From Alistipes sp. (GTDB taxonomy: Bacteria > Bacteroidota > Bacteroidia > Bacteroidales > Rikenellaceae), in contig JAGBEH010000006.1 of NCBI GenBank assembly GCA_017937125.1, forward strand, positions 1-64,000: a DNA stretch of 64,000 bases. The letters run 5' to 3'. Within the stretch, counting starts at the first letter, position 1, and every line of letters starts with the position of its first letter. Both the position numbers and the translations under genes were made by a program. Of the stretch, positions 45,901 to 47,877 are shown piece after piece. A model generated the notes under the pieces. The model was given only the letters and a program-made list of their open reading frames with translations. It was not told where the DNA came from and did no database searches.

Positions 45901-47877
45901 CTATTCCACTTCGAGGTCGAGCGCCTTTTTGAGTTCGAGCACTAACGGATTTTTCTGCTCGATATGGCGTATGCGGTCCTCCAACTTTATGGGACGCATC
46001 TTGCGTCTGTCCTCCCTGACCGCAATGTCGAGCTCCAGAGAACCCGCGATGCCCGCAATCTCGGCTATACGCATAAGTATCTCCGTCGTGGAGCGCAGTA
46101 TCTCGTCGCGCAGGGCTTCGGTCGGTACCGACAACCGTATGATATTGTTCTCGAACCGCATCGTCTCGAACGCTACGATGAAACGCGGACGCCGTTCGTT
46201 TATGTCGTTCAGAATATGCTGACGGTTGTTTTCGAGTTTGGCGGCACTCTCAGGGTCGATGACCTTTTCGATTGTCGTCGTCTCCTTCGCCTCGACCGTT
46301 TCGTCCGTCGTGTTCAGCAGCGCCGAGAGCGAAGCTCCCGACATCAGCGGCTTGTCGGAACGGGAGGCATAAGTGCCGCCTCCGTTCACGGCCGCAGCGT
46401 TTACCGTTGCTGCCGAAGTCGCTGTCCCTCCGACAGAGGTCGCGGCCATATGACCTCCGACCGCCGTTGCTGCGGGCTGCGACGGGGGCGCGGACGGCGC
46501 GGTGTTATGCATCGTATTTGTCGTTGCGGACTGTTGCTCGGGAGCAGGTTGCACGGGCTGTTGCGGAGTCTGTCGAACGGTCGCCGTTTGCGCAGGTGCG
46601 GCAGATGCGGTGCTCGCCGTTGCCTGCGGAGCCGCCTGTGTCGTCGGTTGCATAGCAGCAGGCACCGTTTGCGACCCTCCTTGTGCCGTCGTATGCGCCG
46701 CAGGAGATGTCGGTTGCGCCGCAGCGAGTGCCGCTTTCCGAAGATCGGGCAGAGGATAATCGTCCGCCCCTACGGTCGGGTCATTTTTTTTTTGACCGAG
46801 AACCGCAATCTTCATCAGTCCCAGTTCGACGAGCAGCCGTTGGTTCGAGGATTGCCTTATTTTGCCGTCGGCATCGGCGAGCAATGATATTGCGCCGAAA
46901 AGAAAATCGTTGTCGCATCGTTCCGCTTGGGAACGGTATCGTTCGAGCAGCGTGCCCGTAAATTCTATGAGCGAGAGAGCAGGCCCCTTGGCGACCAACA
47001 GGTCGCGCATATGCTGGCACAGCCCCGCCATAAATATCTGCCCCGAGAAACCGTTGGACAATATGCGGTCGAAGAGCAGCAGCGCATCGACATAATTGCC
47101 GTCGAGCAGCATATCCGTCATTTGGAAATAGGTGTCGTAGTCGAGCACGTTGAGCGTCTGCGCCACCTCCTTGAACCCGAGCGTCGTGCCGCAGAACGAA
47201 ACCGCCTTGTCGAACATCGACAGCGCGTCGCGCATACCTCCGTCGGCCTTGCGGGCTATCAGGTTCAGAGACTCTTCGTCGTAGGTTACCCCCTCCTTGT
47301 CGGCTATCTGTTTGAGATACTCGACCGCATCCTCTACGCGTATGCGGTTGAAATCGTATATCTGGCAGCGCGAGAGTATCGTGGGTATGATTTTATGTTT
47401 TTCCGTCGTCGCGAGGATGAATATCGCGTGTGCGGGCGGCTCCTCCAGCGTCTTCAGAAAGGCGTTGAACGCCTGCTGCGAGAGCATATGCACCTCGTCG
47501 ATGATGAATACCGAGTAGCGGCCTACCTGCGGGATGATGCGAACCTGCTCGATAAGGTTGCGGATATCGTCCACCGAGTTGTTCGACGCGGCGTCGAGTT
47601 CGTGTATGTTCAGCGAACGGTTTTCGTTGAACGTACGACACGATTCGCATTCGTTGCAGGCTTCGGCACCTGCGGGGTGAAGGCAGTTTATCGCCTTGGC
47701 GAAGATGCGCGCGCACGTTGTCTTGCCGACGCCGCGAGGACCGCAAAACAGGTATGCGTGAGCCAGTTGCCCGCGTTCGATCGCATTCTTCAGCGTAGAT
47801 GTGATATGTTTCTGACCTACGACCGATGCGAAGGTCGCGGGGCGGTATTTTCTTGCACTGACGATAAAGTTTCCCAT
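45901..47877 (-). CDS. dnaX: DNA polymerase III subunit tau/gamma, with slippage-prone A10 run
   Basis: A 658-residue clamp-loader subunit. Domain I holds the Walker [10 protein letters not shown], a zinc site C-x8-C-x2-C-x2-C (about 64-77), the [11 protein letters not shown]alker B region and the SRC motif in LSRCQIYDF. Domain III runs to about residue 360. An Ala/Thr/Gln/Pro-rich linker (about 385-520) leads to the tau-specific C-terminal domains. At codons 362-365 the mRNA carries ten consecutive A (46793-46784), read CAA-AAA-AAA-AAT, directly followed by GACC; an extra A or a -1 shift gives an immediate TGA and a 365-residue gamma-like product. Promoter box TACTTTTG at 47892-47885 lies 7 bp before the ATG. 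Confidence 0.96.
46784..46793 (-). promoter_or_regulatory. Probable programmed slippage site in dnaX (A10)
   Basis: Ten A in the coding strand within codons 362-365. Thermus dnaX uses a run of this kind for transcriptional slippage and E. coli dnaX uses A-AAA-AAG for a -1 shift. Here a one-base slip in the proper direction meets TGA at once. A strong downstream hairpin is not evident, which favours transcriptional slippage (inference). Confidence 0.7.

Follow-up and report, generated by a model that had tools for sequence, protein, structure and literature searches.

The dnaX gene of this member of the Bacteroidia, which encodes the gamma/tau protein of DNA polymerase III, carries a run of ten A's directly behind the codons of domain III. 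The run is best explained as a programmed slippage site, at which RNA polymerase would slip and one gene would provide both full-length tau and a shorter, gamma-like protein, with both products being used; we assign a probability of about three in four to this reading. The run is conserved throughout the genus and across much of the class, both alternative reading frames close shortly behind it, and among relatives the tau-specific part is found in each of the three possible frames.

Results

The putative slip site and its reading frames

In what follows, the window is the whole 64-kb stretch of DNA that was analysed, the GC content of which is 55%. Its dnaX gene (45901..47877, minus strand) has as frame-0 product a tau protein of 658 aa, which scores above the cut-off of NCBIfam model NF011531 and matches TIGR02397 (dnaX_nterm). 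The plus strand reads T10 exactly at 46784-46793, and the coding strand accordingly has A10 at 46784..46793 (minus strand), copied from a T10 template, within codons Q362-N365; codons 362-366 are CAA AAA AAA AAT GAC (Q362-D366). With one A added, they become CAA AAA AAA AAA TGA and specify a 365-aa product with a QKKK end. The TGA of this +1A frame, which is also the frame of a ribosomal -1 shift, is located directly behind the run (46781..46783, minus strand), and the remaining frame (+2A, equivalent to -1A) ends four codons beyond the run at a TAG (46770..46772, minus strand), so that both non-tau frames close fast. Domain III (PF12169; 46801..47172, minus strand) is the last domain that the gamma-like product would keep. 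It comprises residues 236-359 of DnaX, and the run, starting at Q362, is directly C-terminal to it. An initial annotation of this DNA had claimed the A10 in codons 362-365, a 365-residue frame closed at once by TGA after the gain of one A or after a -1 shift, a 658-residue tau by normal reading, and a location at the domain III boundary; each of these claims agrees with the sequence and the Pfam match.

Known gamma subunits consist of domains I-III alone. What the gamma-like product would lack is the tau-only part, that is, the linker and the C-terminal module (45904..46782, minus strand). In an alignment of 29 sequences, the C-terminus of tau in this class is formed by a conserved module, which in the window extends over about 114 aa according to alignment and model (approximately 45904..46245, to 46353 at its widest, minus strand) and has no Pfam match. 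The module could be modelled with a mean pLDDT of 80, the confidence being good beyond roughly the first 30 residues. A Foldseek comparison of this model with the PDB gave no match at E 0.001 or better; the best neighbours were DnaA domain I (4tps, E 0.028) and then DciA, and this weak resemblance (E 0.03 or worse) is no more than a hint.

Conservation of the run

Taken alone, the A10 is weak evidence. It is unique in the window, where 0.24 such runs are expected from shuffles and at least one occurs in 17 of 100 shuffles; it is thus only mildly unusual there, and its significance has to be decided by conservation. The 2.16-Mb assembly (90% complete) holds five distinct A10 sites, both strands taken together. 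Apart from the dnaX site, three of these look intergenic or terminator-like and one is inside coaBC.

In the dnaX linker, examined over about 115 bases behind domain III at distinct loci only, a run of A9 or longer is present at all 87 loci from the genus, 33 of 39 from the family, 49 of 109 from the order and 57 of 66 from the class. Upstream dnaX coding sequence amounts to 89.9, 40.4, 113.1 and 68.3 kb in these sets and contains no such run in the first three and a single one in the last, or one per ~312 kb when pooled. Given this difference between the linker and the upstream sequence, the run is not a product of chance. A10 is the commonest length retained in the linkers of relatives. The alignment with related dnaX genes that the initial annotation had proposed as a check is hence favourable throughout the genus, where the out-of-frame stop that follows the run is nearly always kept as well.

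The genus set consists of 87 distinct loci from 179 other genomes of the genus, the rest having been unfetched, identical or cut; the first 30 were the best matches, five were chosen for a match ending near residue 366, and the remainder were taken in list order. The family set comprises 39 loci of the 70 other-genus genomes with a match, the order set 109 loci (about one per family), and the class set 66 loci of the 93 with a match outside the order. Identical flanks were counted once, and L033, L035, L150, L200 and L217 were excluded on account of contig ends or insufficient length; L033 and L035 nonetheless carry A11 and A10. A search of the phylum yielded loci from the same class only, 26 of 27 with A9 or longer, and at least five of these genomes overlap the class set. 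Among 80 titled genome records the run is present in 47, including isolates of Pedobacter, Hymenobacter, Mucilaginibacter, Chitinophaga and Aquimarina. Many Bacteroidales lack it, the Bacteroides and Prevotella MAGs of the titled records included, and 60 of the 109 order loci are without it.

Selection at the codon and stop level

In each of the 88 genus genes, counting that of the window, the two slip codons read AAA, and the genus tree shows no change at either, whereas the Lys codon of a nearby upstream MK motif switched between AAA and AAG at least 18 times on the same tree. Synonymous breaks of the run in close relatives, which the initial annotation had named as evidence against its proposal, are therefore absent from these genes. 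The genus favours AAG for Lys: in upstream codons, AAA accounts for 376 of 1221 Lys (31%) and CAA for 172 of 1180 Gln (15%). Zero synonymous change is by itself not unique to the slip codons, as among nine other conserved Lys columns, followed in 43 sequences of equal length, K210 (AAG in 43/43) also never changed, the other eight having changed 1-12 times.

The residue behind the run varies considerably, with D in 34, N in 23, S in 12, E in 10 and Y in one of the 80 genus genes with an AAT end, and at least 26 changes; placed behind T, the codons for D, N, E and AGY-type Ser each yield TGA, TAA or TAG. Among the 84 genes of the genus that encode tau in frame 0, the +1A-frame stop is immediate in 78, one codon later in five and five codons later in one, as against an immediate stop at 2% of downstream control positions, which bears out the claim that the stop placement is unlike chance. 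Both alternative frames are shut within 10 codons in 99, 97, 97 and 95% of the genes (genus, family, order and class), compared with 4, 6, 25 and 26% expected from controls. Judged by such comparisons, selection acts on the DNA at the slip site, beyond the protein sequence.

Tau in three frames

Run-bearing genes number 227, the window's own included, of which L103, L155 and L167 are without any tau frame. The 224 genes with one tau frame have it in frame 0 (187 genes), in the +1A frame (26) or in the +2A/-1A frame (11), this last group depending on assembled run lengths, as many of the genomes are MAGs in which homopolymer length is possibly wrong. Nine of these 11 genes have runs of A11-A12. 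In the genus members L032, L034 and L036 (A11, A11 and A12), which were fetched deliberately for a match that ended near residue 366, frame 0 specifies gamma, and tau needs one A less or two A's more; none of the 80 titled genome records exhibits the +2A state. On a quick FastTree tree of the 159 genes with a state, the tau frame changed at least 32 times. An early frame-0 stop is present in 39 of the run-bearing genes, 37 of which keep tau open in another frame; slippage is hence needed to read tau there. One frame runs off the locus in eight run-bearing genes, and for L079 and L277 the frame-0 call is based on 59 and 18 codons only.

Discussion

Proposed transcriptional slippage and its rivals

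According to the preferred reading, RNA polymerase would slip while copying the T10 template and generate mRNAs with extra or missing A's. Those with 10 or 10+3n A's would be translated into tau (658 aa), while all other A numbers would lead to a stop within a few codons and thus to a gamma-like clamp-loader subunit of ~365-368 aa, which would comprise domains I-III and be devoid of the tau-only C-terminal module. Because slippage would populate all three frames, dnaX would tolerate one-base changes in run length, and tau could come to reside in any frame among relatives.

Programmed -1 ribosomal frameshifting of the E. coli type, on A AAA AAA/AAT and ending at the adjoining TGA, must be weighed against this and appears unlikely. 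In its favour, the window's A10 contains the heptamer A_AAA_AAA, as any run this long does, with the -1-frame TGA next to it. The -1 stop is the immediate and the best conserved one, and frameshifting could equally account for tau in the 26 genes that have it in the +1A frame. Against it, a run kept most commonly at A10 is longer than the seven bases that would suffice for such a shift, and the 11 genes of the +2A frame could not obtain tau in this way. Should the runs of these genomes really be A10, this strongest argument against -1 shifting weakens. As regards stimulators, an upstream Shine-Dalgarno-like sequence is reported to stimulate the E. coli dnaX shift (PMC3711429), whereas Bacteroidia ribosomes are reported not to recognise Shine-Dalgarno sequences (PMC9976891), which would render this kind of stimulation unavailable; on reading the window sequence, none is evident by the run. 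Near the run, the RNA folds slightly better than controls: the mean z is -0.9 from +6 to +46 and -0.8 upstream, as against -0.2 to -0.6 in controls, and the genus gives -1.1 across the run. This mild signal leaves room for a ribosomal stimulator, but a strong conserved stem-loop is not found by the run. In the window the run itself folds into a hairpin loop (z -1.48). A hairpin around the run was considered as a conserved feature and rejected, since in the genus base pairs that enclose the run occur less often with the native flanks (mean 4.5) than with shuffled ones (11.6).

Two further explanations have to be considered. Sliding of ribosomes on poly(A) lysine codons, demonstrated in vitro with E. 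coli ribosomes (PMC4363877), would allow ribosomes to come off the run in any of the frames, no stimulator being needed, and would account for all three tau-frame arrangements; yet a robust truncated product is described in that study for A11, with little at A9 or A10, while A10 is the commonest length here, and we regard sliding as quite improbable. Alternatively, the run may have arisen and persisted without function in a Lys-rich linker, or may mark a hotspot of replication slippage (phase variation). AT-rich members have A-rich linkers, run length differs between relatives, and some runs of A9 or longer also occur in the 600 bases downstream of the linker (0 in the genus, 2 in the family, 6 in the order and 6 in the class). 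Such an origin is nonetheless very improbable in view of slip codons that never change in a 55% GC window and an AAG-preferring genus, of the placement of the out-of-frame stops, and of the 37 out of 39 early-stop genes with tau open elsewhere. Hence, transcriptional slippage of the Thermus type fits best: a ribosomal -1 shift cannot give tau in the +2A group, and the three frame arrangements together with the reported lack of Shine-Dalgarno recognition in Bacteroidia favour slippage by RNA polymerase.

Relation to known dnaX systems

Transcriptional slippage at an A9 run is established for dnaX of Thermus thermophilus (PMC5009743, PMC1088944). The window gene resembles it in having an A-run in dnaX, tau in frame 0, close stops in both other frames and a predicted shorter gamma; of the traits that define Thermus-type slippage, it possesses an A/T run of at least nine bases, here A10, as well as close stops in both non-tau frames. 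It differs in that the run is A10, belongs to another phylum, directly follows domain III, and has relatives with tau in all three frames. The E. coli gene (site A_AAA_AAG) shares with it the product logic and a -1-frame stop, but needs Shine-Dalgarno and stem-loop stimulators, which were not found here or are reported to be unusable in Bacteroidia.

In the GeneTack survey (PMC3711429), 17 two-ORF dnaX genes are described, nine of them with A10, for which slippage was proposed, and three Chlorobi species with A9, A8 and A7 are named. These genes likewise exhibit poly-A at the gamma/tau border; their two parts reside in two ORFs, however, whereas the window dnaX has tau in frame 0. Bacteroidia may be among the species to which the nine A10 genes belong. 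In a non-Bacteroidia family (f180), many dnaX open frames are ~390-450 aa and others ~620-720 aa long, like the published two-ORF dnaX of Chlorobi. The 2005 survey (PMC1088944) omitted cases of truncation because these are difficult to assess comparatively. Among the papers listed by searches that linked dnaX or slippage at transcription to Bacteroidetes, Bacteroides or Flavobacterium, subscription journals being mostly outside scope, there was no report of a dnaX A-run extending across the class. Sites of this kind are thus known already; new here are the present member, its extent across the class, the test of stop placement and the pattern of three frames.

Possible other recoding devices and a second candidate gene

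An early frame-0 stop in the absence of an A-run is found at one of 75 run-lacking genus-to-class loci (L171) and at L392, L398, L408 and L429 among 33 run-lacking titled records; the contig-cut L379 was left unassigned. Three of these loci, all from Bacteroidales MAGs, have an in-frame TAG directly behind domain III (L398, TAG 3102; L408, TAG 2788; L429, TAG 3099), past which the same frame continues through the tau C-terminus. The TAG is embedded in a TAGATTGC context, and CATAGATTGC(A/T)AGG is common to all three, although third-base identity at same-residue codons is only 32-46%; a short hairpin can form just behind the TAG. In L398 and L408, TAG is probably an ordinary stop, as it also terminates long open frames in the vicinity. 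Programmed stop-codon readthrough is a possible further route to gamma and tau in these loci, three MAG loci being few. The linkers of L171 and L392 lack the A-run; there, frame 0 is closed by a TAA, behind which tau goes on in the +1 frame. The two share a GGCAATC stretch, and GGAG precedes the stop, such that a +1 shift is possible, here again with few loci (two, both from MAGs).

Outside the window, coaBC contains the only other coding-strand A10 that was identified in this genome (G000:C7:133655-133664; L243:1501-1510), located at the border between the CoaC and CoaB domains. Runs of A9 or longer are present at this border at 25 of 34 loci in the genus, 8 of 24 in the family, 8 of 29 in the order and 9 of 28 in the class, as compared with none in the 500 bases upstream in each group and two downstream, both in the order. 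The +1A frame stops within five codons in all 25 run-bearing genus genes. The stop-making GGTA context accompanies the run in 23 of these 25 genes versus 3 of 9 without it (Fisher p 0.0014), but with independent pairs the link is not significant (median p 0.22, 6 pairs) and is therefore suggestive only. We consider coaBC a probable second slippage gene, which would give free CoaC; no report of coaBC slippage was found among the papers listed by literature searches, subscription journals again being mostly outside scope. In some relatives (e.g., G421, G377, G424, G215, G239 and G243), CoaC and CoaB matches are in separate or shifted frames, and coaBC may thus exist in two-ORF form as well. A further A9 is located right after an ATG (G000:C6:271269-271277, L503; ATG GCA AAA AAA AAT AGT), where one added A creates an immediate TAG.

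It is tempting, if rather speculative, to assume that Bacteroidia keep gamma beside tau by several recoding devices at one and the same border, that is, mostly by poly(A) slippage, by UAG readthrough in some run-less lineages (L398, L408 and L429) and perhaps by a +1 shift (L171 and L392), and that poly(A) slippage also supplies free CoaC beside CoaBC. Genes relying on slippage would then be frame-neutral, one-base changes of the run would be nearly harmless, and the coding frame would drift. A variety of ways to make gamma has been considered consistent with the importance of this subunit (PMC5009743).

Implications

Our findings suggest that many bacteria of the class obtain two clamp-loader proteins from a single dnaX gene through slippage, with RNA polymerase as the most likely enzyme to slip. 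For annotation this implies that a dnaX gene of this class which looks frameshifted is probably intact. The existence of further recoded genes is suggested by the coaBC site and by the loci with an in-frame TAG. Finally, the conservation of the site across much of the class offers natural replicates for asking whether bacteria beyond a few models make gamma, too.
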